From the IMG/VR virus record IMGVR_UViG_3300045135_002424, positions 1 to 34,983 of that record: a DNA stretch of 34,983 bases. One strand, written 5' to 3'. Below are positions 1,042-22,135 of the stretch, one piece after another. The notes beneath the pieces were generated by a model. The model worked only from the letters and a program-made list of their open reading frames with translations, did no database searches and was not told the DNA's origin. How positions within the stretch are numbered: the stretch's first letter is position 1; every line of letters starts with the position of its first letter. Position numbers and translations under genes: made by a program. The stretch is from a virus.

Positions 1042-1042
1042 T

Positions 1043-1617: not shown

Positions 1618-1747
1618 AGGGTGGGCAATTTCAATCGGGTTTTATCCCGGCGTATTAATAGGTATGCGCAGCTACTTTCAAGAGGATATGACGTCCCACG
1701 TAGTATATCTTCCGTTTTTTGATGTAGCATTTCAAATCGCACACTAA
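1601..1747 (+). CDS. 48-residue conserved-looking small protein upstream of ribonucleotide reductase
   Basis: Begins MSKENKGWAISIGFYPGVL and ends with LPFFDVAFQIAH. It carries the hydrophobic pattern W-x-I-S-I-G-F-Y-P-G and a second run HVVYLPFFDV. I remember very short phage proteins with this same SIGFYPG/YLPF pattern in marine phages, but cannot verify it. Its TAA overlaps the ATG of the reductase beta gene by one base (TAATG at 1745-1749), which is strong evidence that it is translated and coupled to that gene. It is too short for default gene-finder cut-offs. Function is unknown; it is not predicted to be a classic membrane protein, although about half of it is hydrophobic. Confidence 0.68.
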   Translation: MSKENKGWAISIGFYPGVLIGMRSYFQEDMTSHVVYLPFFDVAFQIAH

Positions 1748-2715: not shown

Positions 2716-2716
2716 T

Positions 2717-4438: not shown

Positions 4439-4455
4439 TTGTTGTTTAGTTAATA

Positions 4456-4489
4456 AGAAAGGGGACCCGTAATTGGATCCCCCTTTTTT
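4456..4489. terminator. convergent (bidirectional) rho-independent terminator
   Basis: On the plus strand, AAAGGGGACC and GGATCCCC pair with one bulge around a short AT-rich loop, followed by six T residues (4484-4489), giving a good intrinsic terminator for the reductase transcript. On the minus strand the same stem is followed by a weaker TTTCTT tract. It lies between the nrdA stop (4438) and the stop of the leftward gene (4488), exactly where the two transcription units converge. Confidence 0.75.
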
Positions 4490-5021
4490 ATTTCTTTCTG
4501 CTATTCTTTATCCAAGACGCAGCAGCTCGCCCTAGCATAAGCCCAGCTCCTATTGCACTTGCTTTTTCAACAGGATGTAGGTCTTTCCATGTCCTGTCAT
4601 CATTGCCAGCAAATGGATTGCTATTTAAATTACCACTGCTTGTGTTAGTTTGAAAATCAACAGATAAATTACCGGTTGGTTTATTAACCTTTTTAGTATT
4701 ATTGCTGCTGTTCACTTTCATGCTAGCATTGGTTTTAGTTTGCTTTGCTGGAGAATTCTTTTTAAGCTCAGACCTATCGTACTTAGACACTCTACCTTTT
4801 GCTTTTCTTTCCGCTTTCGCTGCTGCTAAATCAGCAGGGCTAAGCTCAGAATAAGTTTTAGGTGTATCCTTGCTTATTTTCTTTGTAGGTCTAAAAGTAC
4901 CGCTATCACCTTTGCTGTATTCTTCTTTACCCTCAGGTGTCTTCCACTCTTCTTTAAACCATCGTTTAAGAGCTAAGCCTTCTTTGGTCTTTCGAACTTT
5001 TTTGAAAGGTGACTTATACAT
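4488..5021 (-). CDS. basic protein with a conserved WFKEEW / RPTKK-TPKT domain, unknown function
   Basis: This 177-residue, strongly basic protein starts MYKSPFKKVRK. Residues about 15-60 carry KRWFKEEW, FRPTKKISKDTPKT and SELSPAD. This resembles a domain of unknown function that I remember from phages and giant viruses, usually with extra Cys residues that are missing here. The middle (80-140) is rich in Asn, Ser, Thr and Lys and looks disordered. The C-terminus (about 148-172) is a Gly/Ala-rich hydrophobic segment (AIGAGLMLGRAAASWIKNS) that may insert in a membrane. It is the last gene of the leftward unit, coupled to the preceding gene by TAATG. It shares an SP-x-K motif with its neighbours. 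No function can be assigned. Confidence 0.7.
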   Translation of the reverse strand: MYKSPFKKVRKTKEGLALKRWFKEEWKTPEGKEEYSKGDSGTFRPTKKISKDTPKTYSELSPADLAAAKAERKAKGRVSKYDRSELKKNSPAKQTKTNASMKVNSSNNTKKVNKPTGNLSVDFQTNTSSGNLNSNPFAGNDDRTWKDLHPVEKASAIGAGLMLGRAAASWIKNSRKK

Positions 5022-5221
5022 TACTTTTTAGATTTATTTCCCCAATTAGCCGCACCAACCTTGCGACATTTAGCGATAGCTCCGCTAGCGTACGCCGAAG
5101 GGAATACGTCATAGCGGGCTTTCACTTTATTGTAACACGCGTCTTTTGCTTTTAATGGACTACCGCATCCTGCTTTTAAAGGACTCCCAAGGCGTTGTGG
5201 TCCACAACCCTTGTAAGCCAT
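5021..5221 (-). CDS. small Cys/Lys-rich protein with the RYDVFPSAYASG-CRK-GAANWG domain
   Basis: This 66-residue protein is nearly all one conserved motif: CYNKVKARYDVFPSAYASG (residues 28-46) followed by AKCRKVGAANWG. I recognise this pattern from phages and from eukaryotic giant viruses, where it is a domain of unknown function; this is memory, not a search. The N-terminus holds two direct copies of GSPLKA (residues 12-26) and four Cys residues that might bind metal. Start and stop both overlap neighbouring genes by one base (TAATG), so the three basic genes 4488-6210 are translationally coupled. High charge and small size suit a DNA- or virion-associated protein, but that is inference. Confidence 0.75.
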   Translation of the reverse strand: MAYKGCGPQRLGSPLKAGCGSPLKAKDACYNKVKARYDVFPSAYASGAIAKCRKVGAANWGNKSKK

Positions 5222-6210
5222 TATCCTCTTAGCTTAGCTGCTTTAGCCTCTAGGCGATCAGCACGTTTTTCTTTGCGAGTAGGTTTAGCCGCTTTAGCCG
5301 CTTGTCTGTTAGCTTTCTTATCTAAGCGTGCAAGTCTAGCGTCTGCAATAGCACCTTTGATACGGCCTTTACCAATTCGCTTAGTAGTTTTAGTAGTTGT
5401 AGTACCGTCCTTCTTAGTCTTGGTTACCGCACGGGTGTTCTTGTCTTTAACAACAGTCTTTTTAACGCCAGTCGCTTTGTTAACTGTTTCTTTCTTAGTG
5501 GTACCGCCTTTGTTTGCGCCACCACCAGTTTTAGTCTTAACCGAGCTGATGTTGTTGTTCTGCTTGATAGTTACTGAATCTTTACTGCCTTTGTTGCCCT
5601 TAGGTTTAGCAGGCGCAGACGGCGCCGACGGCGTAGTTTTAACAAGCTCAGGTTTCTTTGGTGTAGATACCGAAACTGTTTTCTTTTTAATGTTCATAGG
5701 CTCCTCAACGCGGTAGCGTTTGCTGCTGCCCATTTTTGCGTTGATTTGGTTCTGAACTTTATTGTACTCAGCGGTTCCTTTTTTCAAACCTTTGCGCTGG
5801 CTAACCAAGCTGTTCAATTCTTTATCCCATTTAACACCACCTGATTTAGACGCAGGAGCATTAGCTTTAGGTGCAGGTGCAAATTTTTCCATTGATGCAA
5901 CGTCACTTGGTTTTTTACCTGGCGCGTAAACGCGCTGTGACGGATCTAGTGTATTGCTCATTGCCTCTCCAGCAGATGGTGCTTTGCTTGGAGATGGAGC
6001 AGATGCTTGCGATCCACCCATGCCTTCAATCTCAGAAGAAAATGGTGGAGGATATGCAGGTACGTTTTCATTCACGCCCGGCCCATATTCTTTTTTAGCC
6101 GGTGATTCTGGCGCAGCCTTGATCGCATCTTGCAATGGACGAGGCAGCCTGTGTTGGTTGCCTACTAGCGCTTTTGCAATAGGCGATTTTGGATTCTGTT
6201 TGTAAGCCAT
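5221..6210 (-). CDS. long low-complexity basic protein, possibly DNA-binding or virion-associated
   Basis: This 329-residue protein has no recognisable fold. Residues 1-45 contain KSPIAKA and ESPAKKEYG, copies of the SP-x-K-type motif shared with other small proteins of this phage. Residues 45-200 are Pro/Ala/Ser-rich. Residues about 200-280 are Thr/Lys repeats (KKTVVKDK, GTTTTKTTKR), and the last 55 residues are an Ala/Lys/Arg helix (RQAAKAAK, RKEKRADRLEAKAAKLRG) reminiscent of histone H1 tails. It follows the amidase and starts a string of three coupled genes. Its leader is ATTAATTAATTAATC with no Shine-Dalgarno site. DNA condensation or packaging as virion cargo is plausible but unproven; a long opposite-strand frame is an artefact of its base composition. 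Confidence 0.7.
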   Translation of the reverse strand: MAYKQNPKSPIAKALVGNQHRLPRPLQDAIKAAPESPAKKEYGPGVNENVPAYPPPFSSEIEGMGGSQASAPSPSKAPSAGEAMSNTLDPSQRVYAPGKKPSDVASMEKFAPAPKANAPASKSGGVKWDKELNSLVSQRKGLKKGTAEYNKVQNQINAKMGSSKRYRVEEPMNIKKKTVSVSTPKKPELVKTTPSAPSAPAKPKGNKGSKDSVTIKQNNNISSVKTKTGGGANKGGTTKKETVNKATGVKKTVVKDKNTRAVTKTKKDGTTTTKTTKRIGKGRIKGAIADARLARLDKKANRQAAKAAKPTRKEKRADRLEAKAAKLRG

Positions 6211-6212
6211 GA

Positions 6213-6226
6213 TTAATTAATTAATT
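6213..6226. repeat. TTAA short tandem repeat in a leader
   Basis: Three and a half TTAA units span the amidase stop and the leader of the 329-residue basic gene. It is probably just an A/T-rich translation leader, but could vary in length between isolates. Confidence 0.4.
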
Positions 6227-6634
6227 TTTGTATTCAGCTTGCACGTCAAACGATGGACATGCTTTGTTTGCAAATTCGTTGTGGCCGTGAATAGTAGCCC
6301 CAGGGTATTGATCAGTTAAATCGAACAATAGACCGTCTAATGCTGCTTTTTGTTCCGGTGTGCGAGTATCCTTAGGTGTTTTACCATCTTTTTCAACCCC
6401 TCCAATATAACAAATACCTATAGATGTAGAGTTATACCCTTTGGTATGTGCACCTGATCTTTCTACCGGACGACCAGGATGTACAGTCCCGTCGAGGTAG
6501 ATTACGTAATGATATCCAATGTCAGACCACCCACGTCCATTAACGTGCCAATCACGGATAGTGTCAACATCGATATGCTGACCCTCGCGAGTAGCGGAAC
6601 AGTGAATGATAAGCTTTTCAATTTTACGATTCAT
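6221..6634 (-). CDS. N-acetylmuramoyl-L-alanine amidase, T7 lysozyme-like endolysin
   Basis: This 137-residue protein cleaves the bond between N-acetylmuramic acid and L-alanine in peptidoglycan and is the lysis enzyme. It covers a complete Amidase_2 domain. The zinc ligands are H11 (in IIHCSAT), H118 (in HGHNE) and C126 (in NKACPSFD). K124 and Y41 (in GYHY) match the catalytic Lys and Tyr of T7 gp3.5, and the spacing H118-K124-C126 is identical to T7 H122-K128-C130. The frame is open upstream to 6823, but ATG 6634 gives the normal family length and lies one base after the stop of the upstream coiled-coil gene. No signal peptide is present, so it needs a holin; the two membrane proteins just upstream are candidates. 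T7-type binding to RNA polymerase cannot be judged. Confidence 0.92.
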   Translation of the reverse strand: MNRKIEKLIIHCSATREGQHIDVDTIRDWHVNGRGWSDIGYHYVIYLDGTVHPGRPVERSGAHTKGYNSTSIGICYIGGVEKDGKTPKDTRTPEQKAALDGLLFDLTDQYPGATIHGHNEFANKACPSFDVQAEYKN

Positions 6635-6635
6635 A

Positions 6636-6947
6636 CTATTTATTTTTAAGCCGCTCATTTTCTTTTTCAAGAAACTCGACTTTAATTCTAAGCGCAGATA
6701 CTTCTTCAGTAAGCGCCAATACTTGATTACGTAGTTCATCTTTTTCGTCGCTTGAATTTGCAAGCATCGCTTCCAAATTGCGCACACGGTGTTTAAGGTC
6801 GTCTCTGTATTGCACCCCGTCACTGTTTTCTAGTTGTGATTTTTTTTCCTCTGACTTAACCTTAAGTCGCGTTTGTAAAAACTGCCAAATACCCGCAGAC
6901 CCTAATACGGTTAGAGCGGTAATGACGATCTGCGTGTAATCACCCAT
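6636..6947 (-). CDS. small membrane-anchored coiled-coil protein (possible lysis accessory)
   Basis: This 103-residue protein has one hydrophobic N-terminal helix (about residues 6-25, VITALTVLGSAGIWQF) followed by a long charged helix. Heptad-like leucines (LKHRVRNLEAML, LRNQVLALTEEVSALR, VEFLEKENERLK) indicate a parallel coiled coil. The order membrane protein - this gene - amidase is that of a lysis cassette, so a spanin-like or holin-accessory role is plausible, but no lipobox or known spanin motif is seen. Its start overlaps the end of the upstream membrane gene by eight bases and its stop is one base from the amidase start. Confidence 0.65.
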   Translation of the reverse strand: MGDYTQIVITALTVLGSAGIWQFLQTRLKVKSEEKKSQLENSDGVQYRDDLKHRVRNLEAMLANSSDEKDELRNQVLALTEEVSALRIKVEFLEKENERLKNK

Positions 6948-7320
6948 GTCTTTGATTTTTTTCTTTAAATACTCTTATAGTATTCCAAAAAGCGAAGAAC
7001 ATAATTATAGCCCAACCTACGCGGCTACCATTAAACAATCCTTCTGCAATTAGATTTTCAACTGTCATTAACGCAATTATGGCTGCAATTTGCACGGCAA
7101 TTAATCGCATTCTAAGCGTACCGTTCCATACTACAGCCCATAACTGGAATGAACCAGCCGCAATACCACCTAAACAAAGTAATACTGAAGGGTGCTCGAA
7201 ATCAACCATCAGCGCTGCTGGCAATGCAAAAATATGGCACATTGCAATAAGCACTTCATTAGGTTCGCTATCGCTGTACCAAAACAGCTCTTTAATTTTC
7301 GCTAGTCCCTTAGTTTTCAT
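6940..7320 (-). CDS. multi-pass small membrane protein, candidate holin
   Basis: This 126-residue protein has about four hydrophobic segments: near residues 23-40 (VLIAMCHIFALPAAL), 45-65, 70-90 (RLIAVQIAAIIALMT) and 98-115 (VGWAIIMFFAFWNTI), ending in a basic tail. Small size, several membrane spans and its place directly before the coiled-coil and amidase genes fit a holin, but sequence families of holins are diverse and I do not recognise this one. Its leader contains two AATAAATA-type runs and no Shine-Dalgarno site. An unrelated inner-membrane function cannot be excluded. Confidence 0.55.
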   Translation of the reverse strand: MKTKGLAKIKELFWYSDSEPNEVLIAMCHIFALPAALMVDFEHPSVLLCLGGIAAGSFQLWAVVWNGTLRMRLIAVQIAAIIALMTVENLIAEGLFNGSRVGWAIIMFFAFWNTIRVFKEKNQRHG

Positions 7321-7339
7321 TATTACGTGATTTTATTAT

Positions 7340-10300
7340 TTATTTATTAAACAGTTCATTAATTAAATCTTCTTCGTCGGTAGTCTTTTTGTTTTCTTTA
7401 TTTTTGCGTCTAGTCTCTTTCGCTTTCTCTATACCTTCTTTTTTACGCTTTTCTTTACCGGCCGCTTTGATTGCATCACCCTCCTCATCAATAGCGCCAA
7501 CATCCCAAGTCTTCCAGCCCAACGCTAATGCTATACGCTGCCATGCCGAATTACGAGCATCCATTGCTTCGCCTATAGAATTTAATTCGTCAATAACACG
7601 ATCAAGTGGAACGTTAAGTGTACCTGATACAAGGCTTCCGCCGATTGACCACCCTGGCCCAAAGTCTGGACGACCATTAGTTGCTACATCAAATGGCCGC
7701 GCTTCTAGCTGATCTTTTTCAAACTTGTATGTTTGTATTGCCGAGTATATCTTTCTTAGCTTAGAGTTAATAGGTGGAGAAATACTAGTAGCCGCAATAA
7801 CAGTATAAGCATGGTCAGCTAAGAAGCCTTTTTCGTCTTGCTTCATGAACTCGTCTATAACATTTTTAACTGTAGATATTATAGCACCGTACATTCCACT
7901 ACCGCGCAATATTGTATCTAACATGCTATCCAGTACTCGCGCAACCTTAGCTTCCTCTTTAGCTGCATCTTTTTCCTCGTCATCGTCATCAAACCCTGGG
8001 ATCAATGCAAACAATGCACTTTGTAAGGCAGAGAAAATGAAGTTTTGCACAAACCCGTAATATGCAATCTTGCTTACGTTTGTTTTCCAATCCCCGCGAC
8101 CATTTATAAGGTCAAGACCGGCTTTTTTCATCAAACGAGTGTATTGCATAGGCGTGTTAGCAAAAGCAAACACCAAACGTCCTAAAACGCTTCTTTGTTG
8201 CTGTGATACAAGAGCTGGATCAGATGACTGCTGTGCTTCATCAGAAATCTTTGTAAAGTCTAGCCATGCTTTTTCCTCTGCCTGTTCTTTGCTTAGCCCT
8301 TTCTTTAAATAGCTGTTTACCCTATTGCGATAGAATGAAGCACCACCTGTGGCAATTGCAAAGCTATCCGCAATTTGAGTAGGTAAGAAACCTATCTTTA
8401 GCAAATATGCCAATACAGCACGAGGGTCACCTTTACTTCTGTTCGCGGCTTGTGCAAGTTCAGATTCACTAACATCTGTTTTCAACCCCGATCTACGTTC
8501 TTTAAGTTTATCCGAGTTAAATATCATTGCCCAGTCTGACCAAAATTGCTTTTGATTAGCAAACGCCGCTGCGGCCTTTATAGGGTTGTTATCCGACCAA
8601 TTAATAAAGTTTGTTGTAGAAAGCATCTGCAACAACGCTGAACGGCGGTTAAAGAACATGATAGCACCCGTAGAGCCGTTAATCCAGTTAATAAACTTGT
8701 TAACTGTTGCGTTGCTTCCGCTTACACGGTTTGTACCGTTTTTCATAGAATACAAAGCGTCTTCTATTGCCTCACGATGTGCTCTACCTTTAATAGCCTC
8801 AATCTTGTTGAGATTGTCTTCGGTAAAAATAGCATCTGCGTTTTCAATAAACTCTTGCAAGAACTTTTTACGACCAATTTTTTCAGTCATGCTGTTCAAG
8901 TCTGAAAGCACAGTCTGTGTTTGCCAGTATTCACCTGGCTCCATCCATTCGTCTCTTCTTGCTACTACAAGTAAAGAATCGGCGAACGCAACCATTTCCG
9001 GATTTTGCTTAATCGCATCTAATAATAGTTTTTTATCTCTTTTAGAAATACCGGGTACAGGCGTGCCTTGTCTGTCCCAAAGGTAAACACGTAGTGCCTG
9101 GTCGTATGTAAAGCCTGAATCACCAATCTTTTTATCAAGCATCTTATATTGATCCTTGAATATTTTGATTGTTGCTTTATAGTCTCTTTTAATTTGTTGG
9201 CGTACACGGTTAATAGCCTCAACACCTTTGAAGTAAGGGTTCATTAACTTGTCTTCAAACCATGCCATATCAGCATCACCTTGCTTACCTTTACCAGAGA
9301 AAGCATAATGTACCAAACCTCTAAAATCATCAGCACCAGGCGGAACAAAGAATTTAAATCTACCCTTCATCGCACCTCTGATCTCAGCTTGTACTTTAGA
9401 GAACACTTTAAACGATGCAACCCCTGAGCTTCCTTCTAGTATTTCGTTGAATTTAGCGCTTAGCCCTTTGCTGTATCTAGCCGGCCCTGTTTCAAGGTCT
9501 TTGTAAAGCTTATCTAAGAATGGCTTGGGCAATTCTTCACCCATTTTAAGCTCGTTCGTATTAAGCTCGTAGAATTTATCGCCAAACTCTTGCTTGTATA
9601 ATTTAGCGCTTTCTTGTACCGCGTCCCACGTGCGCTCTACAATCATATCCGGCAGTGCTCTTTCTAACCTAGCTTTGTTTCTAGCTATTGCTTCTGCTTT
9701 AGAAGTATTAGCAAATACAATTGAAACCTCGTAGCCGGCTTTGCGCAGGGCATTGATTTTTTTCATTGTAGCGTTATATGAAGCGCCGGTTCCGTCTACA
9801 ACCATGCTTTCACGGTTGGTCATATACTTTTCCATTTTCGCTTCCGCGGCTTTGCGGGCCGCCGCACCTAGCTTAGCTCTCATCGAGCGCTGCTCTTTAG
9901 TGTATTGCTGCTCATTTGCGGGTAAGCCAGCTTGTTCCTTCATTGGTTCTAATGCCAAATCTTGGTTTACAACCTTAAAGCCTCTTCGTCCTAACTTAAG
10001 CCCTTTTCCTACATTTGTTTTGCCAGCCCCTGGTCCGCCAACCATGAATACTGCTCTTGGCACAGATCTAGAAAACTTAGCACTACCCGTGTCTTCCATT
10101 TGAAGCATTAAATCAAGTGCGGCATTATCAGTAGCCATATTGCTAAATTCAGCCCATTTTTCACCGTATATAGTGCCTTTGTTTTCGCCACCAATTTTTT
10201 CCAATGCATACATGTTGTTCATGCCAAAGGTTGTAATATTAAAGTAACGAGACGGCGACATGTCAACGGTAGGGTCAAACTTAAGTGGCATTGTAGATTG

Positions 10301-13300
10301 AAACTGCAAATTAACGTTTGCGTCCATGTCTGTTGGTATAATAGCTACCGAGTAAGCATCTCTTAACGCGTTTAGGTCAACCTTAGATTTTTTATTCCAA
10401 AAGTGATTGGTCAACTGCAACATTATATAGTTAGTCGGTATAATGTGCTCATATCTTACCTCAGCATTTGTTTTGCCAACAAAATAGTATTCTACGTTTG
10501 CGGCAGCTTTAAGAAGACTAGCCATGTTGCTGTCAAGACTCTTCATTGTTGCCACCCACAATACAGGATTATTTTGAGCGCGCACAAAAGCTAAAAAGTC
10601 TGTTAGCGTTGCCCAAGCTTCCTGAGCCTGCTCTTTTCTTTCATCATATTCGTTGGCAAAATCCTCTTTAGTTTTTGGAACTTTTTTGCCATTAACGGTT
10701 TTATATGCTTTTTGCGTAGGTGGTGATTTAAACTCAACAAGCTCACCTTTATAAAACACTTTTGTGCCTTGGACTGTAACCCCTGGTATTAAAGCAATAT
10801 TATTTTGGTAATAATCTGTTTTATTAGCATAGTATTGTCCCCTTCCCTTGCCGATTTTAGTAGAAGTATAATTATGACCTCCCATCCATTTAAGGATTTT
10901 AACAAGACCAGCGGCACCTTCTTTTTCTACTAGCTGAGCGTTATACTCAAGCTCGACAGCTCTTCTTTCTTTTTGGATACTTTCAATATCCATCATAGCC
11001 TTAAAGCTGCCAAATATATCCTCTAATACAAGTCCAACCTCGGCAAGCAGGTTAGTTGAAGTCTCAGCCTGCTCGATACCGTTAACAACAAAGTTAGTAA
11101 AGTCAACAGCTCCAATTTGATCAGCTTTATCAATAAACTTAGCTACATGCTTGTGACCGTCTTTAGCTATTTTTCTCAACTGATCTTCGGTTAAAGATGT
11201 ATCGTTGTTATCTATGTATACTTTTATTAGCGCATTGCGCAAACGAGCTTCTGTTACACTTCCGTTGTTTCGCAGCATTGTTAACAGCTCTTCTTGATGC
11301 TTACGCAGCTGCTGTGCCTGCGCGGCTGTCATAGAGTATTTAACATTACCGCGCTCAATGTCTCTTGCTACTTCAGTTACATAGTTTGCCGCAAGCTCAA
11401 CGCCAAGTAGGTCTTGACGCATTTCATATGCTTTGCGGATTTCACTATTCTCGTCTTTAAGAGCTTCATTGATAATATCGAATGATATTTCTTCGGCCAT
11501 TGCTTTAGCTAAAGACTCTTTTCTACCGCGTATTAGCGAACCATCTTCGTTAAAGAAGTTTGACAAGAAGTCAGCATCGGACATTCTTGTGGCTGCATTA
11601 GGCATACGGCGCACAAGTTCAGCACCTGATGTTCTACCGGCGTTGTCCGTAGATACGCTTTCGCGATCGATTTTTTTGCCTTTCCAGTTGCTAGTCCACT
11701 GTCCATCTACTTTTTTCTGAACAGCGTTAGGCATTGCGGTCATCAACCATGTGGTGGTCATGTTCTCTAATATTGCAGCCTTATTCCTTAATAAGAATTT
11801 ACGCAATTGCCCATCTTTCAAACCGCCCATTTCTTTTTTCAAATCAATGTCAGCTTGCTTACCCATGGTCTTACGCAGCTCAGCAATATATGGCTTTACA
11901 GTAACATTCTTAGATACCGATTCGTCCATGCGCTTTTTCATTACACGCACGGTTGATAATACTTTCTTTTGAACGTTTTCTAAAGTTTCTTTACTTAGTA
12001 CACGACGTTGTATTAGGTTTTTATATGTAGGCGCCTCTTTCTTAGACTCGGTAGGAGCTTGATCAAACTCTTGTGTTTCTGTAGTTTCTTTTTCAAGTAC
12101 CTCAAGCGCATTTGTTGAAAGCTGATTAAGGTACATTGGAGAAGCACTATTTCTGTCTTTCTTAAGTACATCTAGAATGGTAAACCTAACAAGACCGTTA
12201 ATATAGCCATATAAGGTTCCCTTGCCGTTCCAGGGGCTCTTTCTTAATCTTTCTAACGTACCAACAAGCACCTCAGAAATAAAGTCCATTTTGGAGTCCG
12301 AATCGAATCTAGCAGCAAGGTTGTTTACTTGTGCTTCAATAATGCCGTAAAGCTCGCCTTCAACCATGCGGTTTCCAATTGCTTGCTCCGGTGTTAACTT
12401 GCCAAACGCTTCTTTTATTTTATCAAGTCTAGCTACAGATCTACTTTTTCTTTTTCTGTTATCCGGCTCGTTATCTTCTTCATAAGCTTTACCAAATAGG
12501 TTTAAAAGCTCAGATGTTTTAGCACCTCTATTTCGATTAGCATATCTAGCTATGAAAGCATATGTTTGTCGCCCGTCTTTAAGGCTTAGTCTGTCAGTCT
12601 TAGATGCTCTATTAAAAAGATCGTTAAAGAAAGTTTTCAAGCGCATCATGGTGGGCATGTCTAATTTACCACCTTCCGAAATATAGTCGGACAATGCGTT
12701 CATCGCCTCTTCGTAATAAGCCCCATCACCTTGATACGAGGTTTCCAGCCTAGCCATTACATAAGCGTGTGCTTCAGGAGAGTTTTGCTCCATCCATTCA
12801 AGAAGCTTTTTTCCCGCGGCGTTTTCATTACCCTTGCCTAATCTATTTGTAGATATAGCGTGCAACAGCTCATGTGAGTATACACCGATTCGACCGTTCA
12901 ATGCAGCCGCATCGGCGTTTACATATATTTTGCCGTTAACATATTGAGCCTCGCTTTCTTTGCCAAATTTAGCGGTATATTCAGCATCTGTCATTTCTAC
13001 AAAAGAAATGTTCATGCCCATTGCCTTAGCTAATTCCTGGGCACTTTTTTTGTCTTTCGCTATTTGGTTCGTGTTTTCCGATGCGTAAAACTGTATGGCG
13101 GCTTCATTTTCAATAGCTTCCTTAGTAAGCTCCGCGCCGCGCTGTTCTAGTACTGCCGCTGCCTTTTTCTTGTAATTATTTTTTGCAACTTCGCTCAGGT
13201 TTTTAAATCTACGTGCAGAATTAATAAATTTAGCATCCGCTTGATTTTGCAACATAACCTCTAAAGCTGCTCTTCCTGCAAAACCAACTTGTGTAGCTGC

Positions 13301-15709
13301 ATTTTGTAATATAGGATCAGCACCCCGCATATTGCCGCCTATAATAGCGTCTCTTTCTTCAGCAAGCTTATTAAATTCAGCTTCCATTTCTTTTATAGCG
13401 GCCATCATACCCGCTCCTTGCGCACGTCCAGAGCGAGCGGCCTTCATTAGGCGCTCGTTAAGGCGGCGCATGCGCACATTTCTTTTGCCAATTTCAATAG
13501 CATCCTCCGCAGTAAGGGTAGATCCAACTCTACCGACCGCTGCCATTTTAGCAAAATCAGCCTCAGACTGTATTTCCTCAACAAGCGTTGCTACCTCCTG
13601 CGTCATTGGCATTTGGTTTAGCCTTGGATCAAATATATTGTTAAGGTCTTTAAGGCCGGTAAGCTCCTGCAGTTTTTTAACTTTATTTGCGTAGTCTCTT
13701 TGCTCTTTAGCGGTCATTAGCTCAAACGCCATCATATCATAAGCCGCCGGGGCAGAACCTTTTATTTCCATCGCACCCCCTACAAGCGCACCGCCGTATA
13801 TAGCTTCGCCTACACCTTCAAAAATATTATTGTTTTCTCCTAGTATAAGGTTTTTAGAAACATTGTTAACAAATTCTGTAGCTCCTTCAGAAAGACCTTC
13901 TTGAACCATTGACTTACCTATAGCAACATGTATTTTAGGCTTTAATGGGTTAACTGCTCTATTTACACCTTTAACAATAAAGTATTTTGAAGCTCCTTCA
14001 AATGCTACCTCGGCAATGCCCGATACAACTTGTCTTCCAAGTTTTTGAGAATCCGTTAAATTTAAAATTCTTTCTTGGTCTTTAATTTCCTCCTTTAAAA
14101 GCGAAAGAGAATAAGGGTCTAACTCGTCCTCGCCACTTTCGTGTTTTTCTAATCTTAACAAATTAGCCTCAAGCCCTTTTGCAGCGTAGTAGTCGTTCTT
14201 TAAGTTTTCTATTCGAGCACCCCCGTAGCCGCTTGCAAAAAACAAAGGCATCGCCGCCGCCCCTGTATATGCCATTGCCACCGATGGCGCAGCTTGTACA
14301 ACAGTCCTAGCTGCAAAATTAGTAAAGTCTCCAATGCTGTTAAAGGACTGGTCCATGGTAGGACCCTGAGCTAGCATTTCTCTAGCTATATCTGTTTCTA
14401 TAGAGCGTTCTAAAAGCTTTTGATCGTGTCTTTCACCTACATACGCTGCCAATGCTTTTCTTTGGTCTGGAGTAAGACTAGATAATACCCCGCCAACACC
14501 CTGTAGACCCATTCCTTGCCCACTCTCTATTGAAGAAACTACAACGTCGCCTATAAAGCCTTCTAGGCTATTAATAGTCTCTCGACCAGCTACACCTAAC
14601 AAACCAAGCAAAGAATAATCTTTGTTAAAATCTTTAATAGCCGCTAATAAATCCTTTGTTTGCTTTGAGTCAACGGATTCTATAAAGTCTTCAAATTCGT
14701 CTTTGGTTGTATTGTATTCTAGTATCCTGGCTTGTATTGCATCGTAACCCTCTTGTGTTGGATTTATTTTAAAAGCTTCAATTTGATTATTAATATCGTC
14801 AACCATAGCGTTAATTGAAGCCGCTTCTTTTTCAGAATTTTTTATTCTGTAATCAAGCTCAGCACCTTTTTTACTTACGAGCGCTTTAACTATTTCTTGC
14901 TGCTCACCGTCAAGACTTGTTACGTAATTTTCACCAGCTAAATTAAGGTCTGCAGCCTGTCTTTCTAATCTTTGCGTTTCAATTTCTTCATCTGTTGGTG
15001 CAAAAACGCCTGTTTCTTTCCACTCCTCGTATTTTTGACGAAAATAATCGCCGCGTTTGTCTAAAAGATCTTCCGCATTAAGCTTGGCTTTTCCAGGGCC
15101 GTCTTGTAGTTCCTCTATTCTTTGGAACTCTTTTAATGTGTTGCTTGTATAATCCTCTTCCCAGGTATCTTCATCAATTCTAACAGCATCTCTAGCGTTG
15201 TAATATCCCTGTAATACCTCTGTGTTTTCAGCCTCCATCTGATTAGCATAGTTCAGATCACCATTTTCAGTAATGAAGTCATTAAACATTTTTAATGCAT
15301 TATCTCTAAAGCTTTTTGAACCTATAAAAGATCCGGTTCTTTTTCCGCTTTTTGATCGTAAATCAATCGCGTCTAACCCTGGGAATGCTTCGTCAATTTC
15401 AATACCGATAGCAGCCATTCTAGACTGCAAGCGAGCTTTTACTTCTTCTTCGCTTCCTTCTAGATCTTCTGGCGTTAAAAGATACGCTTCAATTCCGGGT
15501 GACCCCAAAGAAGTACCGCCCGAACTGGATTCCCCAGCGGGCGTTTGGTTTGAGCTCGCCGATGGGGTCGTTCCCGCCGAGCCGTTCTGCTTTCCCTCTT
15601 TAAGAGTAAAGCCGTTATTTTTAGCAAGCTCTTCAACCGAAATGCCTTCGATTTCGGCCCATTCTTGCATATATTGCAAGCTAAAATCTTCAGTACCGTC
15701 AGTGTACAT
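7340..15709 (-). CDS. giant polyvalent ejection protein with metalloprotease motif and zeta-toxin-like kinase domain
   Basis: At 2789 residues, this is almost a quarter of the window. Features in order: a Ser/Gly-rich linker (about 43-70); helical, partly hydrophobic regions (about 370-690), including a possible membrane segment near 465-500; HELLH (946-950), the zinc site of gluzincin proteases, with acidic residues downstream; a helical segment at about 1128-1186 resembling sigma-factor region 2; and MVGGPGAGKT (1889-1898), a Walker A followed by a zeta-toxin-like domain to about 2000 (NQD, VVDGTG, LRKAGYEV, RNKARLERALP). Near 2550-2580 a hydrophobic stretch ends in DDDDEE, and the C-terminus is basic. 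Giant multi-domain phage proteins of this kind are thought to be carried in the virion and injected. It directly follows two probable internal virion proteins, which supports this. Domain activities are inferred from motifs. Confidence 0.85.
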   Translation of the reverse strand: MYTDGTEDFSLQYMQEWAEIEGISVEELAKNNGFTLKEGKQNGSAGTTPSASSNQTPAGESSSGGTSLGSPGIEAYLLTPEDLEGSEEEVKARLQSRMAAIGIEIDEAFPGLDAIDLRSKSGKRTGSFIGSKSFRDNALKMFNDFITENGDLNYANQMEAENTEVLQGYYNARDAVRIDEDTWEEDYTSNTLKEFQRIEELQDGPGKAKLNAEDLLDKRGDYFRQKYEEWKETGVFAPTDEEIETQRLERQAADLNLAGENYVTSLDGEQQEIVKALVSKKGAELDYRIKNSEKEAASINAMVDDINNQIEAFKINPTQEGYDAIQARILEYNTTKDEFEDFIESVDSKQTKDLLAAIKDFNKDYSLLGLLGVAGRETINSLEGFIGDVVVSSIESGQGMGLQGVGGVLSSLTPDQRKALAAYVGERHDQKLLERSIETDIAREMLAQGPTMDQSFNSIGDFTNFAARTVVQAAPSVAMAYTGAAAMPLFFASGYGGARIENLKNDYYAAKGLEANLLRLEKHESGEDELDPYSLSLLKEEIKDQERILNLTDSQKLGRQVVSGIAEVAFEGASKYFIVKGVNRAVNPLKPKIHVAIGKSMVQEGLSEGATEFVNNVSKNLILGENNNIFEGVGEAIYGGALVGGAMEIKGSAPAAYDMMAFELMTAKEQRDYANKVKKLQELTGLKDLNNIFDPRLNQMPMTQEVATLVEEIQSEADFAKMAAVGRVGSTLTAEDAIEIGKRNVRMRRLNERLMKAARSGRAQGAGMMAAIKEMEAEFNKLAEERDAIIGGNMRGADPILQNAATQVGFAGRAALEVMLQNQADAKFINSARRFKNLSEVAKNNYKKKAAAVLEQRGAELTKEAIENEAAIQFYASENTNQIAKDKKSAQELAKAMGMNISFVEMTDAEYTAKFGKESEAQYVNGKIYVNADAAALNGRIGVYSHELLHAISTNRLGKGNENAAGKKLLEWMEQNSPEAHAYVMARLETSYQGDGAYYEEAMNALSDYISEGGKLDMPTMMRLKTFFNDLFNRASKTDRLSLKDGRQTYAFIARYANRNRGAKTSELLNLFGKAYEEDNEPDNRKRKSRSVARLDKIKEAFGKLTPEQAIGNRMVEGELYGIIEAQVNNLAARFDSDSKMDFISEVLVGTLERLRKSPWNGKGTLYGYINGLVRFTILDVLKKDRNSASPMYLNQLSTNALEVLEKETTETQEFDQAPTESKKEAPTYKNLIQRRVLSKETLENVQKKVLSTVRVMKKRMDESVSKNVTVKPYIAELRKTMGKQADIDLKKEMGGLKDGQLRKFLLRNKAAILENMTTTWLMTAMPNAVQKKVDGQWTSNWKGKKIDRESVSTDNAGRTSGAELVRRMPNAATRMSDADFLSNFFNEDGSLIRGRKESLAKAMAEEISFDIINEALKDENSEIRKAYEMRQDLLGVELAANYVTEVARDIERGNVKYSMTAAQAQQLRKHQEELLTMLRNNGSVTEARLRNALIKVYIDNNDTSLTEDQLRKIAKDGHKHVAKFIDKADQIGAVDFTNFVVNGIEQAETSTNLLAEVGLVLEDIFGSFKAMMDIESIQKERRAVELEYNAQLVEKEGAAGLVKILKWMGGHNYTSTKIGKGRGQYYANKTDYYQNNIALIPGVTVQGTKVFYKGELVEFKSPPTQKAYKTVNGKKVPKTKEDFANEYDERKEQAQEAWATLTDFLAFVRAQNNPVLWVATMKSLDSNMASLLKAAANVEYYFVGKTNAEVRYEHIIPTNYIMLQLTNHFWNKKSKVDLNALRDAYSVAIIPTDMDANVNLQFQSTMPLKFDPTVDMSPSRYFNITTFGMNNMYALEKIGGENKGTIYGEKWAEFSNMATDNAALDLMLQMEDTGSAKFSRSVPRAVFMVGGPGAGKTNVGKGLKLGRRGFKVVNQDLALEPMKEQAGLPANEQQYTKEQRSMRAKLGAAARKAAEAKMEKYMTNRESMVVDGTGASYNATMKKINALRKAGYEVSIVFANTSKAEAIARNKARLERALPDMIVERTWDAVQESAKLYKQEFGDKFYELNTNELKMGEELPKPFLDKLYKDLETGPARYSKGLSAKFNEILEGSSGVASFKVFSKVQAEIRGAMKGRFKFFVPPGADDFRGLVHYAFSGKGKQGDADMAWFEDKLMNPYFKGVEAINRVRQQIKRDYKATIKIFKDQYKMLDKKIGDSGFTYDQALRVYLWDRQGTPVPGISKRDKKLLLDAIKQNPEMVAFADSLLVVARRDEWMEPGEYWQTQTVLSDLNSMTEKIGRKKFLQEFIENADAIFTEDNLNKIEAIKGRAHREAIEDALYSMKNGTNRVSGSNATVNKFINWINGSTGAIMFFNRRSALLQMLSTTNFINWSDNNPIKAAAAFANQKQFWSDWAMIFNSDKLKERRSGLKTDVSESELAQAANRSKGDPRAVLAYLLKIGFLPTQIADSFAIATGGASFYRNRVNSYLKKGLSKEQAEEKAWLDFTKISDEAQQSSDPALVSQQQRSVLGRLVFAFANTPMQYTRLMKKAGLDLINGRGDWKTNVSKIAYYGFVQNFIFSALQSALFALIPGFDDDDEEKDAAKEEAKVARVLDSMLDTILRGSGMYGAIISTVKNVIDEFMKQDEKGFLADHAYTVIAATSISPPINSKLRKIYSAIQTYKFEKDQLEARPFDVATNGRPDFGPGWSIGGSLVSGTLNVPLDRVIDELNSIGEAMDARNSAWQRIALALGWKTWDVGAIDEEGDAIKAAGKEKRKKEGIEKAKETRRKNKENKKTTDEEDLINELFNK

Positions 15710-17034: not shown

Positions 17035-17694
17035 TTATCCTTTAAACAGGTTGCCTGTTGCACCAGCTACGCCCTCACCTGCTGCCGCCATCGCACCTTG
17101 GGCTGCGTTAGCTGGGTTAGCTTTTAAGAAAGCGCCCGCTACTTGACCCACACCGCCTACTAATGCTTGAGTGGCTTCTTGTCTTGCAATATTTGCTGCA
17201 GCCAATCGCTGTTGGCTCATTCCTAATTCCGTTTCGTATTGTTCGCGCTTCATTTGGCGTGATAGCATATCGCCCTCGCGTTCCATAGATTGAAGCTGTC
17301 CAGCCATCTGCGCTTGTGCTTTCTGATTACCCGCTTCTTGACGAGCGATATCAGCGGAAGCTGCTTGTGCGTTTTGAGATTGTTGATTCGCCATGGCTTG
17401 CGCAAGGGCTGCAATACCAGACCCACCAGCCGCACCTTGCATGGCTTGCATAGTGTTAGCCATACCCTGGGCTTGCTGCTGAGCTGTAAAATCTGCTGCC
17501 TGCGTATTTACCGTAAGGTCTTCATAGACGTTTTCCATATTCGCATATGGATTAGATAGGTCTTGATTCTGGTAACGAGCCATGTTCATATCAAACTGCT
17601 GTTGTGCCGCAGCTTGCTCTGCTTTTCTTCGCTTATGCCCGATAATGCCAGATGCAATACCTACACCGCCTTGAATTACACTATCTATTAACAT
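17035..17694 (-). CDS. Ala/Gln-rich internal virion protein (T7 gp14-like position)
   Basis: This 219-residue protein has a short hydrophobic Gly-rich N-terminus (IQGGVGIASGIIG, residues 8-19). A long Ala/Gln/Met-rich helical body (about 20-175) follows, then a Gly/Ala-rich hydrophobic C-terminus (ALVGGVGQVAGAFLKA, about 177-192). Size, composition and weakly membrane-active ends resemble internal virion proteins that form the channel through the cell envelope, such as T7 gp14. It sits after the tail gene and before two larger candidate ejection proteins. It is low in complexity, so similarity searches would be uninformative; the call rests on composition and order. Confidence 0.6.
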   Translation of the reverse strand: MLIDSVIQGGVGIASGIIGHKRRKAEQAAAQQQFDMNMARYQNQDLSNPYANMENVYEDLTVNTQAADFTAQQQAQGMANTMQAMQGAAGGSGIAALAQAMANQQSQNAQAASADIARQEAGNQKAQAQMAGQLQSMEREGDMLSRQMKREQYETELGMSQQRLAAANIARQEATQALVGGVGQVAGAFLKANPANAAQGAMAAAGEGVAGATGNLFKG

Positions 17695-17728: not shown

Positions 17729-20700
17729 TTATTCGCTGCTGATAAATATTTCAGAGTTAACCGCAAAGAGCTCTTTTTTCTCCCCACTGCTAGTTTCCAT
17801 CTTAGTAGAAGCATAGTAGCCAATGATGCCAGAAGTATTCTTCTCAGTGTCCTTGACAAAGAAAACAAAGTCTAAAGTAGAGGGGTCATGTTCGCCGGTC
17901 CAGTCTACAGTAACCGTGTTTCCAGAAATAACCAAGCATGTGCCTACAATTTTAGTTGCATTTGCGTCACTAGTATCTCTAAAGTACACTTTATCGCCCT
18001 TTTGAAGTGACACATTTATAGACGGGAACACAAGGTCATATACCTGATATTGTGTGCCGTCTATAAGCCTATTGTCATCTGTTGATGAAGTTGGGAAACC
18101 TAAGCCTTGTATAGCAAATTCCGCCGTGTCCATGTCGTTAATCGTGGTGGCCAAACCTTTAATATAGTTAAAGTAAAGGTTTTCTTTCTTCTTCCAAGCT
18201 TCAACTTCACCGTCTTGTTGGTCTGTATCAACAAACGCAACCCAACCTGCATCACCTTCATAAGAAAGCGTTTTGAAGTTTTTAATGCTTGACGGTGCGT
18301 CGTTAAACAAAGGTGTAATGCTTGTTTTTTCTTGAGTACCGTAGAAGTTTGAACGAGTTGAATTAGAATGCTCCCACATCTCGCCATCTTTAAACGTGTA
18401 AAACTCATTATTTAAAGAAAGCGATGCTTCAGGATAAAAGCTTAAGCGAGAAACCCAACCATCAGCTTTTTCTTTGAATATAGTACTTTCGTCATCAATA
18501 GCTAATACGTAGCCGCCGTTGCGATCATCGTAGCCCCCGAGTGCTTTTGATGCTATTTTTAGCTTATCAGTAAAGTAATCAGACATGCCTTTATCAGCAA
18601 TCTCCGTAATACCGTCTCTAGATAGTCTAATTACAGTTCCTCTTGCTTTGTCTGTAAAGTAAGCTCTGAAACCATACGATGCAAACGATTCGGGGTTTTT
18701 GGATATACCAAACTCTCCCGCGTACGGTATCGCTTGTCCAAGCACATTGTTATTAGAAGTGACGTTGGCGTTTCCATCTGCGTTATATAATGCGTCTTTA
18801 TTGGCTAGAACACGGAATATTTTGTCCTCTAGCATTGTTACTAAATCACCATCTCTAGCGTGCAATTTCTGAATTGTACCATAGGACGGGTTAAAATCTT
18901 TTGTAATGTTCTCTGCTATCAAGAACTGATTCAAATCGTTTATACCGCTAATAGAGTTAAACAAACCTGAGAATATCATGCTTGATCCCTTACGCTCTTC
19001 TTTGTACTGCGTTTCTATAATAGACGACGCTTTTGTACCCTTGTCAATTGTAGGTGCATTAAAGTCATCGCGTATACGGTTTGATTCAACACCATTACCA
19101 AAGCTGTAGCAGTTAAAGTAATCTAGTGTTTGAGTCGAGCTGTGATTGGCTATTGGAATAGCCTTGGATGCTTCGTAATAAATATCAATATCTATAGCCT
19201 CAGCAGGCTCCGTTTCAAAAATCGCAGGGTTGCCGCTAGAAAGAACGGTATTATTGCTCGTAAGTATTCGATCCCAATCTGTTGCTCTTTCAAATATTTC
19301 AAAGTTATAGGTATCAGCGGTAGGGTTGCCGGTTGTCCAGTCATTTGGATCGTTAATAAGGTCCTCTGTAAAAACAATACGCTTAAATATATTAACATCC
19401 TCTGCACTTAAGCTCCCAGCTGAAGCTGAGGAACCCGGCCTTTGGCTAACTGTAGTTGTTACGGATTCTATTTTATAATAATGGCCGGCGCCATCGTTAA
19501 CAAATTTAATAAAATTACCAGCTTTTAAACCACTATCAAACCATGGTTGCCCGGTAGGAGCCGCTGCAGACGCCGGCGACGTGTCTAAGTTGCCATTGCT
19601 ATCAACCCCGTCTCCAAAAGGCGCATAATAAACATAAAAATCGTCACTGCCCTCCGCTGGAGTATACAAACTGGCTGTTGTGCCGTATTCCGCAAATGAA
19701 TAAGATGCAGGCTCTGCAAAGCCATCATCAGGATCGTCGCCATGAGTTAGTTCAGATACGTTTGAATTATATATTTTATCATACGCGGGATCTAACTGAA
19801 CAAGATTATTTATAATATGCTCGTCAAAAGCGGGGTTTCTTTTAATCTTAGCAAAGAATTTTCCTTTGTATTCTTTTTTAAATACACTTTTGTATTGATA
19901 AAGCTGACACATAAACTCATCATTCTGAGCTAAATCAAACAAAAATCCAGCATCATCACCAAACCCTTCTTCTAAGTATATTTCATACTCACCATAACCA
20001 ACGGCAGTTGAACCATTATTTATAATTATTGTTTTTCCGGTATACCCGCCTTCTTTAATTTTGTAATAATCACTTCCGCTTTCCCCAGCTTTCCATACTC
20101 TTAAATATATATCTTCAGTAAATGCTTCAAAAAAGTTCTTATTACTTTCCCAATCTTTAACCGCAACAGCGGGGGAAGGCAATGCCTCTTCTCTAATTGG
20201 ACCTGCAAATTTAATGTATTTCCAGCCTTTTTCGGGTCTTGAGTTTCTTATTTTTACATTATGTTGCGCAACCTGAACACGTTCTTGAACAATATCGTCT
20301 GGAGCTTCATTAGAAATATCTAATACTTTAAAGCGCGCTTCTTCATCAATAGCATTATTAGTGTCGTGCTCTTTTTTAAGCACTAAAAATCCACCTTCTC
20401 TAAGTTTGTTTCTTTCGGCAGAAGGGAAGGATAGCCATACGTTCCCATCGTCGGAAGCATAAAATCTATCTAATGCCATATTATAATATTCATTAGAAAT
20501 ATCTTTAATGAATATTTTAAAATAATCCGCAAAAGCAGGTGCGGCTGTAGATATAGTCGTGCTTAGAGAAACTTTGTTTTTTGCATTTGATTTTGGCAAG
20601 GTAATAGCGCCGGTGTCGCATGTAAAAACAGGTGTTTCACGCCCGTATTTATCACCATAAACTACGCCTAGCTGATACGTTCTCATCGATTTTATAGACT

Positions 20701-22135
20701 CCTTAGGATTGCCTATATCGCCATGTGCGGCCGCTGTTTTTGAAACCGTAAATGTTGGAGAAATATCTACATCGCCGCTGGTCTTTAAATTAAAGTTTTG
20801 TAGGTAATTACCGTAAACTAATCTATTGCCAATAAGCTCTTGCGCTAATGCCCTCCGAGGTACATTATCCCACGGCCTAAGTATTTGATTAGCCGGCAAT
20901 ATATTACCAATAAGCTCTGTCGTAATTTCATATTCGCTAAGAGACGTGGGGATATCATCTACTTTATATACCGCCGCCGAATTTGCTTTTTTAAACAAAA
21001 TTTCAATACGTTCTACATCTGCCGTAATATCATCGTCTAAGTCCTCTAATGTAAGTTTTCTAAGATTATTAGACATACCTATATTATGAGCTTGCGCGGA
21101 ATTATATCCGAAAGAATTGCCAATAAATGCAACTTTAGAAAACGGCGAGAATGTTGAGTATTGGCCGTCTTTATATTTCCATCTATAAGCAAATCTAACA
21201 AACTCAAATTCAAACATAGGAGGGTCTTCCTCTCTGATAGCGGACCATGTGTACGAAAAACTTAAAAGATTGGCGGATATGCTTATAATATTTGCCGTAA
21301 CGTTACTACCTTGTATTGCGGTAACTTGAATTCTTACTCTAAATTCGTCCTCAAAGTTATTGTCGTTTGTTTTACTAGCGTCTAAAGAAATAGTGTCGCC
21401 AACAATCCAGTTTGGCGCCGCGCTAAATGTAAGAGTAACACTGTCTCCGGCTTCTAAAAACGGGCTTCTAAAATTTTTATTTACGGTTACGGGGTTAATA
21501 CCTAATCCTACCGTACTGCCGCTTCTGCGGGTCGGGCGCATGTTTAGTGTTGGCGGATTACGCGGTCCTTTCTTAATAACAGTTATATCGTCTGCAACAA
21601 AAGACCTGCCGTAAACAGTTGTGTGTGTATTAAGCGTAGCGCCGCTTTGTGCAGACCCAGCTTTAAACGTTTCAATGTTTATAATTCTAGGCTCGTTTAA
21701 ATTATCGGTCCATGCCAATAACCCTTCAAAAACATTAATACCGGTTATATAATAATCAGTGCTAAAGTTTAGCTCGCTACCTGTATCGACTAGAATTGGC
21801 GCAATAATGCCCGTGCTTTGGTCGTACTCCATAATAGCATCAACGCTGCTACTTGTTATAAACCAATATATTTTTTCGTTTTGAGAGTCTGCAATTGCAC
21901 CAATACATTCAGCACTATTGCCAAGCCCAAAATTAGAGTTCCAAGTTGCGTTACCTGATGTTCTTTTGTTTATTAGCGTATTACCTAATATGTTCTCAAC
22001 AGCGCCGACGTCTGAACCTTCCGATGTAGATATCTGGATATTCAAAGCGTCACGATATTGGCCGTTGGGCACAAGTCTCTCATCGAGATCCTTGTTCATC
22101 TTGCCCTGGACAAAATTGTGCTTTAACTTTGGCAT
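17729..22135 (-). CDS. large tail / tail-stabilisation structural protein
   Basis: This 1468-residue protein begins HNFVQGKMNKDLDERLVPNG and continues YRDALNIQIST-EGSDVGAVENILGN. That N-terminus is typical of a tail protein family that I remember from marine and Bacteroidota podovirus-like phages, functionally comparable to the T7 gp12 tail-nozzle proteins. A second recognisable stretch near residues 1230-1280 has NEFYTFKDGEMWEHSN and FYGTQEKTSITPLFNDAP. The bulk is beta-rich, with many short strands and Gly-Asp turns, as expected of a nozzle with propeller-like blades. It is much longer than T7 gp12 (about 790), so extra domains, perhaps fibre docking or receptor contact, are likely. Three bases separate it from the upstream connector gene. 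No lyase or hydrolase motif is obvious. Confidence 0.75.
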   Translation of the reverse strand: MPKLKHNFVQGKMNKDLDERLVPNGQYRDALNIQISTSEGSDVGAVENILGNTLINKRTSGNATWNSNFGLGNSAECIGAIADSQNEKIYWFITSSSVDAIMEYDQSTGIIAPILVDTGSELNFSTDYYITGINVFEGLLAWTDNLNEPRIINIETFKAGSAQSGATLNTHTTVYGRSFVADDITVIKKGPRNPPTLNMRPTRRSGSTVGLGINPVTVNKNFRSPFLEAGDSVTLTFSAAPNWIVGDTISLDASKTNDNNFEDEFRVRIQVTAIQGSNVTANIISISANLLSFSYTWSAIREEDPPMFEFEFVRFAYRWKYKDGQYSTFSPFSKVAFIGNSFGYNSAQAHNIGMSNNLRKLTLEDLDDDITADVERIEILFKKANSAAVYKVDDIPTSLSEYEITTELIGNILPANQILRPWDNVPRRALAQELIGNRLVYGNYLQNFNLKTSGDVDISPTFTVSKTAAAHGDIGNPKESIKSMRTYQLGVVYGDKYGRETPVFTCDTGAITLPKSNAKNKVSLSTTISTAAPAFADYFKIFIKDISNEYYNMALDRFYASDDGNVWLSFPSAERNKLREGGFLVLKKEHDTNNAIDEEARFKVLDISNEAPDDIVQERVQVAQHNVKIRNSRPEKGWKYIKFAGPIREEALPSPAVAVKDWESNKNFFEAFTEDIYLRVWKAGESGSDYYKIKEGGYTGKTIIINNGSTAVGYGEYEIYLEEGFGDDAGFLFDLAQNDEFMCQLYQYKSVFKKEYKGKFFAKIKRNPAFDEHIINNLVQLDPAYDKIYNSNVSELTHGDDPDDGFAEPASYSFAEYGTTASLYTPAEGSDDFYVYYAPFGDGVDSNGNLDTSPASAAAPTGQPWFDSGLKAGNFIKFVNDGAGHYYKIESVTTTVSQRPGSSASAGSLSAEDVNIFKRIVFTEDLINDPNDWTTGNPTADTYNFEIFERATDWDRILTSNNTVLSSGNPAIFETEPAEAIDIDIYYEASKAIPIANHSSTQTLDYFNCYSFGNGVESNRIRDDFNAPTIDKGTKASSIIETQYKEERKGSSMIFSGLFNSISGINDLNQFLIAENITKDFNPSYGTIQKLHARDGDLVTMLEDKIFRVLANKDALYNADGNANVTSNNNVLGQAIPYAGEFGISKNPESFASYGFRAYFTDKARGTVIRLSRDGITEIADKGMSDYFTDKLKIASKALGGYDDRNGGYVLAIDDESTIFKEKADGWVSRLSFYPEASLSLNNEFYTFKDGEMWEHSNSTRSNFYGTQEKTSITPLFNDAPSSIKNFKTLSYEGDAGWVAFVDTDQQDGEVEAWKKKENLYFNYIKGLATTINDMDTAEFAIQGLGFPTSSTDDNRLIDGTQYQVYDLVFPSINVSLQKGDKVYFRDTSDANATKIVGTCLVISGNTVTVDWTGEHDPSTLDFVFFVKDTEKNTSGIIGYYASTKMETSSGEKKELFAVNSEIFISSE

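Follow-up and report, generated by a model that had tools for sequence, protein, structure and literature searches.

A giant polyvalent protein of a podovirus-type phage joins a zincin-type protease site, an exchangeable kinase module and candidate self-cleavage junctions

Large polyvalent proteins of phages and conjugative elements are very long chains encoded in virion gene blocks, and they combine several unrelated enzyme domains, including a zincin-like metallopeptidase (Iyer et al. 2017, PMC5512222). No domain is more frequent in polyvalent phage proteins than the zincin, whose targets have so far been a guess. Iyer et al. define its signature as an HExxH motif with a downstream Glu, and both the occurrence of zeta-like kinases in polyvalent proteins and a proposal of autoproteolysis by the zincins are already to be found in that work (PMC5512222). 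P1 DdrB is processed before packaging; the N4 virion RNAP is packaged uncleaved even though it has a zincin of this kind (PMC5512222). Other described systems resemble the protein reported here in single respects: the T7 ejectosome genes gp14, gp15 and gp16 lie one after another behind the tail genes and encode a small, a medium and a giant protein; the Pnkp enzymes pair a P-loop kinase with a HAD partner; and zeta toxin and PezT are P-loop kinases with their own toxin genes.

The window that we analysed is a stretch of viral DNA of 34,983 nucleotides (IMG/VR record IMGVR_UViG_3300045135_002424, positions 1 to 34,983). It belongs to a tailed virus with a podovirus-type genome akin to those of Bacteroidota phages. 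Its terminase shares 65% identity with that of MW202828 (Manatee Spring) and about 47% with those of Flavobacterium elemo phages, and the next-nearest terminases belong to Cellulophaga, Tenacibaculum and Maribacter phages. The virions of Gundel and Calle are podoviral (PMC8776804). In genome collections, the MAGs that contain relatives are labelled Bacteroidetes, Sphingobacteriales and once Maricaulis; these labels fit Bacteroidota hosts, but binning may account for them. The genes that matter here lie in a minus-strand block with several further virion proteins.

29820-32030, minus strand: terminase, in the upstream block
27387-29816, minus strand: portal, in the upstream block
24737-26155, minus strand: match to phrog_13704 (virion structural), probably the major capsid protein
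17729..22135, minus strand: large tail/virion structural protein of 1468 aa, matching phrog_14478 (6e-151)
17035..17694, minus strand: Ala/Gln-rich protein of 219 aa
15725..17029, minus strand: protein of 434 aa
7340..15709, minus strand: giant polyvalent protein P0001 of 2789 aa, in one open frame of 2789 codons

The giant gene ends the structural block, preceded by the 219-aa gene and then the 434-aa gene, so that a small, a medium and a giant protein follow the tail genes in a row, as in T7. The 219-aa protein is conserved next to the giant gene and gives a weak match to Pfam T7_gp14 in 2 of 35 members (E 0.012); it is a probable gp14-like internal virion protein. The 434-aa protein, conserved in position and sequence among the relatives, is a probable second one. 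Comparison of the two small proteins with PDB profiles returned nothing convincing. In contrast to the T7 proteins, no transglycosylase domain was found in the giant, and there is no sequence match to T7 gp15 or gp16. Gene-order comparison places giant proteins, mostly labelled structural, at the same locus in the named relatives: MW202828 (3859 aa), elemoF gp18 (3694 aa), Gundel gp074 (2482 aa), phi38:1 gp101 (1691 aa) and phi13:2 gp127 (1990 aa). The MW202828 counterpart (741-12320), which contains two HEFGH motifs, is annotated as a "reticulocyte binding/rhoptry protein", and this annotation is misleading.

By the features tested, P0001 is a member of the large polyvalent protein class. It is a very long chain in a virion gene block with terminase, portal and virion genes upstream, and it shares the HExxH motif with a Glu on a later helix. 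An earlier note, made from the letters of this DNA, had described a polyvalent protein in a single frame of 2789 codons at window 7340-15709, with a protease motif, a zeta-toxin-like kinase, hydrophobic and acidic segments near the C-terminus and two probable internal virion proteins before it. The frame is borne out, on the minus strand, which the note had not named, and its motif positions are exact (HELLH 946-950, GGPGAGKT 1891-1898, VVDGTG 1970-1975 and LRKAGYEV 1988-1995). The two preceding genes are as described and are conserved in relatives, and a hydrophobic and acidic segment is found at about residues 2545-2580, within a domain conserved in all homologues. The class assignment is supported by a zincin site and a P-loop kinase in one chain and by the C-terminal fold match. 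As for the suggestion of a takeover or entry factor, the polyvalent class and the position in an internal-virion/ejection gene block agree with it in part. The features of P0001 are given below (residue r corresponds to window positions 15709-3r+1 to 15709-3(r-1)).

13010..15709, minus strand: N-terminal region, residues 1-900, poorly conserved, with Gly/Ala-rich hydrophobic segments around 365-650
12521..12979, minus strand: zincin metalloprotease domain, residues 911-1063, predicted from conservation, third ligand and the elemoF gp18 link
12860..12874, minus strand: HELLH, residues 946-950
12707..12709, minus strand: Glu1001, predicted third zinc ligand
12140..12397, minus strand: sigma-70-region-2-like domain, residues 1105-1190, between protease and core
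11303..12040, minus strand: conserved core block, residues 1224-1469, up to 95% identical between relatives
11333..11344, minus strand: VKYS (junction motif 1), residues 1456-1459, a putative site of cleavage (model segment 1454-1461, pLDDT <50)
10100..11212, minus strand: module with an EHxxP motif (E1754, H1755), residues about 1500-1870, the EH nearly invariant
10070..10081, minus strand: AKFS (junction motif 2), residues 1877-1880, a putative site of cleavage immediately ahead of the kinase (low-confidence linker 1861-1881)
9488..10069, minus strand: P-loop kinase domain, residues 1881-2074, polynucleotide-kinase-like or zeta-like
10016..10039, minus strand: Walker A motif GGPGAGKT, residues 1891-1898
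9470..9481, minus strand: ARYS (junction motif 3), residues 2077-2080, a putative site of cleavage immediately behind the kinase (low-confidence segment 2076-2079)
7343..9484, minus strand: C-terminal domain common to the whole family, residues 2076-2789; helical, includes hydrophobic and acidic segments

Searches of phage records with the whole of P0001 matched only the kinase domains of other phages, and one scan of viral contigs gave no match. Relatives came by other routes: the neighbouring 1468-aa tail protein, used as the query, led to 31 IMG/VR loci, and a scan of IMG/VR with the C-terminal domain gave 294 relatives, of which 80 were kept. De-duplication left 69 giant homologues of full length. 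The family is thus widespread, with 294 related contigs from one scan. The N-terminal region is divergent in relatives, yet alignable, and comparison of the sequences indicates that the constant parts of the family are the protease and the C-terminal domain, with the kinase as an exchangeable, optional module.

The C-terminal domain ties the protein to other phage giants. It matches Gundel gp074 (hhalign 96%, E 3e-9), and its predicted fold is shared by the C-terminal pieces of many giants from Caudovirales (E-values down to 1e-13), a number of which bear the annotation large polyvalent or ART-PolyVal protein. An ART-PolyVal domain (3e-5) also occurs in the variable region of one homologue (alignment A7, 57 sequences). 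The closest BFVD entry is an uncultured virus protein annotated as UDP-N-acetylglucosamine kinase; it aligns over both the kinase and the C-terminal domain, and the pairing of the two is therefore already in databases under a zeta label. Family libraries gave no match for the C-terminal domain, the zincin or the core block.

The protease site is supported mainly by its conservation. Exactly one HExxH is present in 68 of the 69 full-length homologues, with 0.56 expected by chance over all of them together, and in shuffles of P0001 the motif is expected 0.005 times (0.13 times for the bare P-loop pattern). The single homologue without HExxH, L096:4450-11295, also lacks the kinase, the HAD domain and the junction motif. 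A downstream column, 44-105 residues past HExxH, holds Glu in 70 of the 71 aligned relatives besides P0001, and in the 72-sequence alignment the most conserved residues are the two His and two Glu (E947 and E1001). Both motifs lie on helices of the model (H44-58 and H99-112) with pLDDT of about 85-94. The region also matches the HExxH region of elemoF gp18 (hhalign 94.6%, E 7e-8). The zincin sequence is diverse between relatives. No family-library model matched the region, PDB profiles gave nothing convincing, and neither Foldseek nor a second aligner found a zincin match for the model of residues 900-1863. We place little weight on the failed fold match because this model is long and mostly helical, and so is little informative. 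Structure prediction around the two motifs of the earlier note thus returned a P-loop kinase fold for one and no zincin match in the structural library for the other; a zincin fold is inferred from the motif, the spacing of the ligands and the conservation.

Downstream of this site, short peptides of the form [VIA]-K-[FWY]-S recur at the boundaries between modules. P0001 carries three, with Arg in place of the motif Lys in ARYS, and its kinase sits between the second and the third. All three sites fall in stretches with pLDDT <50, although other such stretches exist. Across 68 representatives, [VIALT]-K-[FWY]-S occurs 80 times where 34 are expected, and 51 of the 80 copies fall within junction zones, which account for 1.9% of the length; variants with T, N, A or D replacing S show no enrichment in the same set. 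The motif was seen 7 times against 10.4 expected upstream of the protease, 47 against 12.5 between zincin and C-terminal domain, 22 against 0.3 at the boundary of the C-terminal domain, and 4 against 8.1 inside it; enrichment is thus confined to sequence downstream of HExxH. The junctions concerned are of four unrelated types (end of the core, start of the kinase, start of the HAD domain and start of the C-terminal domain). Since the motif was first spotted by eye, we ran an open scan of 1680 reduced tripeptides; the only two present in at least 10% of members at each of the four junction types were K-aromatic-S and, overlapping it, aromatic-S-K. Sites of a single junction type occupy homologous columns of related proteins and so do not give independent counts; more weight attaches to the fact that the motif recurs at four junctions that are unrelated. 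The motif is encoded by 21 DNA versions that use both serine codon blocks, and therefore selection acts on the peptide; a DNA recombination site is ruled out by the same observation.

These properties suggest that the [VIA]-K-[FWY]-S peptides are a set of candidate self-cleavage sites. In the corresponding reading, which we hold tentatively and at somewhat less than even chance, P0001 is a self-processing injected polyprotein whose zinc protease cuts the giant ejection protein in cis at a K-aromatic-S code and frees exchangeable effectors, much as in animal-virus polyproteins, here in a tailed phage. What weakens it most is that the strict motif is missing downstream of HExxH in 28 of 67 homologues and that the named giants mostly lack the motif: the motif is absent from MW202828, phi38:1, phi13:2 and Gundel, and occurs once in elemoF, upstream of its HExxH. 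A possible but unlikely alternative is that K-aromatic-S serves as a tag for packaging or docking, or is cut by another phage or host protease. The placement at module starts would suit a tag too; the location of the three sites in low-confidence linkers of the model and the confinement of the motif downstream of the zincin fit cis-processing, neither of which is proof.

We next consider the module that the second and third sites enclose. The kinase domain matches Pfam AAA_33 (6e-14, 52.9 bits) and Zeta_toxin (1.2e-13, 51.4 bits), both above cut-off (the curated value for Zeta_toxin is 22.3 bits). A model of residues 1861-2789 (pLDDT 84.7, pTM 0.70) has as its best whole-domain match the polynucleotide kinase of C. 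thermocellum (CthPnkp, 4gp7; Z 17.1, 2.8 A, 164 of 171 residues), nearly tied with O-phosphoseryl-tRNA kinase (Z 16.1) and followed by zeta toxin (Z 15.1) and T4 PNK (1ltq; Z 14.1). The catalytic motifs are invariant in six relatives, and a dN/dS of about 0.065 between P0001 and L035 indicates that the kinase is under strong purifying selection.

What occupies this slot in relatives bears on its function. Just upstream of the C-terminal domain, 46 of 73 homologues have a HAD domain, 10 a kinase, 2 a kinase inside a HAD domain and 15 neither. The HAD domain carries the motifs DFDDTL, LTARP, AKAxW..K and YFADDA and, in 16 of 27 members, hits phrog_415, which is annotated "polynucleotide kinase" (best 1.5e-6); against PDB profiles it gave nothing convincing. 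In the two nested cases (L073:6424-7614 and L104:7846-9027) the kinase is inserted between HAD motifs I and II of the giant virion protein. The occurrence of kinase and HAD phosphatase at one site, sometimes nested, is by analogy the pairing of Pnkp, in which the kinase likewise has a HAD partner; P0001 itself differs from Pnkp in that its kinase lies inside a giant virion protein and the HAD partner is absent. From this pairing, nucleic-acid end processing is preferred over cell-wall poisoning. The domain is most likely an enzyme of polynucleotide 5'-kinase type, with RNA or DNA ends as the candidate substrate.

It is doubtful that the domain is a genuine UDP-N-acetylglucosamine kinase of zeta type, acting on entry to weaken the cell wall, a role proposed by Iyer et al. 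for other polyvalent proteins (PMC5512222). The Zeta_toxin match lies above its cut-off; Foldseek E-values rank zeta toxin (1gvn) first, and it is also among the PDB profile matches of the domain; and zeta-toxin-like kinases have been reported in polyvalent and MuF proteins (PMC5512222). However, the whole-domain fold favours polynucleotide kinase (Z 17.1 against 15.1), with a target TM of 0.72 against 0.50-0.56 for zeta, and the slot in relatives holds a HAD domain of polynucleotide-kinase type, twice with the kinase nested in it. P0001 shares with zeta toxin and PezT (1gvn, 3q8x and 2p5t) the P-loop kinase, the Pfam match and a fold Z of 14-15, but here the domain is part of a larger chain and not its own toxin gene, and the whole-domain fit is below that of Pnkp. 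Of the kinase named in the earlier note, then, the P-loop kinase fold stands, and the identity as a "zeta toxin" is not borne out in that form: the predicted fold is nearest bacterial polynucleotide kinase, and a PNK-like HAD is its slot-mate in relatives. The zeta family is nevertheless close in sequence and fold.

Taking the locus as a whole, we judge it somewhat likelier to hold than to fail that P0001 is the largest product of a three-gene ejection block: a polyvalent protein carried in the virion, processed by its own zincin at the junction motifs and bearing a PNK-type kinase. The gene-order match to the giant structural proteins of named phages is one of its supports, and the processing of P1 DdrB is a precedent for it. 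The universal C-terminal domain would probably place P0001 in the particle and help in its delivery, and position and class suggest that the chain enters the cell with the DNA. The single zincin would most likely process its own chain, during assembly or on entry, at the [VIA]-K-aromatic-S sites downstream, the likeliest order being packaging or assembly with the ejection proteins, processing and then delivery. Cleavage would free two separate proteins, one made of residues 1460-1880 and the other the kinase (about 1881-2078), and would leave an N-terminal part with protease, sigma-like domain and core, together with the C-terminal domain. The kinase could then repair or re-phosphorylate host or phage RNA or DNA ends cut by host defences, and in relatives it would be swapped for a HAD phosphatase of the same pathway. 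Against this reading, phi38:1 gp101 and phi13:2 gp127 are without any HExxH, so an ejection protein at this position can do without a zincin, and the uncleaved N4 virion RNAP is a counter-example to processing. We found no mass spectrometry or cleavage data on the P0001 family, and nothing relevant on elemo-phage proteomics in the literature.

That the zincin is instead an effector which cuts host proteins, the junction peptide having no cleavage role, seems improbable. Such a function is among the possible roles listed in PMC5512222, and the variation of the zincin sequence between relatives would agree with it, but one copy is present in nearly every homologue regardless of the other modules, and the junction motif is confined downstream of it. 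Least probable by far is that P0001 simply serves as a gp16-like ejection protein and that its enzyme-like parts are vestiges, a view that would suit the gp14/gp15/gp16-like block but sits badly with the purifying selection that acts strongly on the kinase (dN/dS about 0.065) and with the conserved catalytic residues of zincin and kinase.

Compared with the proteins of PMC5512222, the P0001 family adds the repeated junction peptide, the exchange of kinase and HAD at one slot and a sigma-70-region-2-like domain, and we found no earlier description of these three, or of the nesting, in the open-access literature; the word "sigma" is absent from PMC5512222. The giants of elemo phages and Gundel_1 share with P0001 the gene position and either a related zincin region (elemoF gp18) or the C-terminal domain (Gundel gp074), but they have neither the kinase nor the junction motif downstream of their HExxH. 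The junction code makes the zincin target directly testable, with predicted cut sites. The exchange of kinase and HAD suggests injection by these phages of enzymes that repair nucleic-acid ends, possibly as a first-minute answer to host nucleases.

For the sigma-like region, residues 1105-1190, Sigma70_r2 is the best Pfam family in relatives (3 of 13 members, best E 0.0011), while a Pfam search of P0001 itself gave no Sigma70_r2 match. Against 22 bacterial sigma factors, the region aligns in register (hhalign 88%, E 3e-6), and a column-shuffle control, which applies only to an earlier and poorer sigma profile, gave a real P of 0.0009 with 0.18 for the best shuffle. The top folds are region 2 of sigmaE (Z 6.9) and sigma70 (Z 6.4), values below 8 that in a helical region are weak alone. 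Comparison with PDB profiles returned nothing convincing, and the profile found no match in two Bacteroidota genomes. Taking the Pfam, profile-profile and fold results together, residues 1105-1190 are quite probably homologous to sigma-70 region 2, which suggests early contact with host RNA polymerase. The adjoining core block has no match in family libraries. The EHxxP module (window 10100-11212) is universal in the family and likewise without a family match; from its sequence it might be a nuclease.

Directly downstream of the giant gene, on the minus strand at window 6221-7320, an Amidase_2 endolysin (6221-6823) overlaps a coiled-coil protein (6636-6947), and a possible holin (6940-7320) adjoins them; the three form a probable lysis cassette. 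Elsewhere in the window, the small and large chains of ribonucleotide reductase are encoded on the plus strand at 1747-4438, where the frame listed for the large chain starts at a TTG (2651) inside the small-chain gene, and a MazG-type protein is encoded at 176-799.
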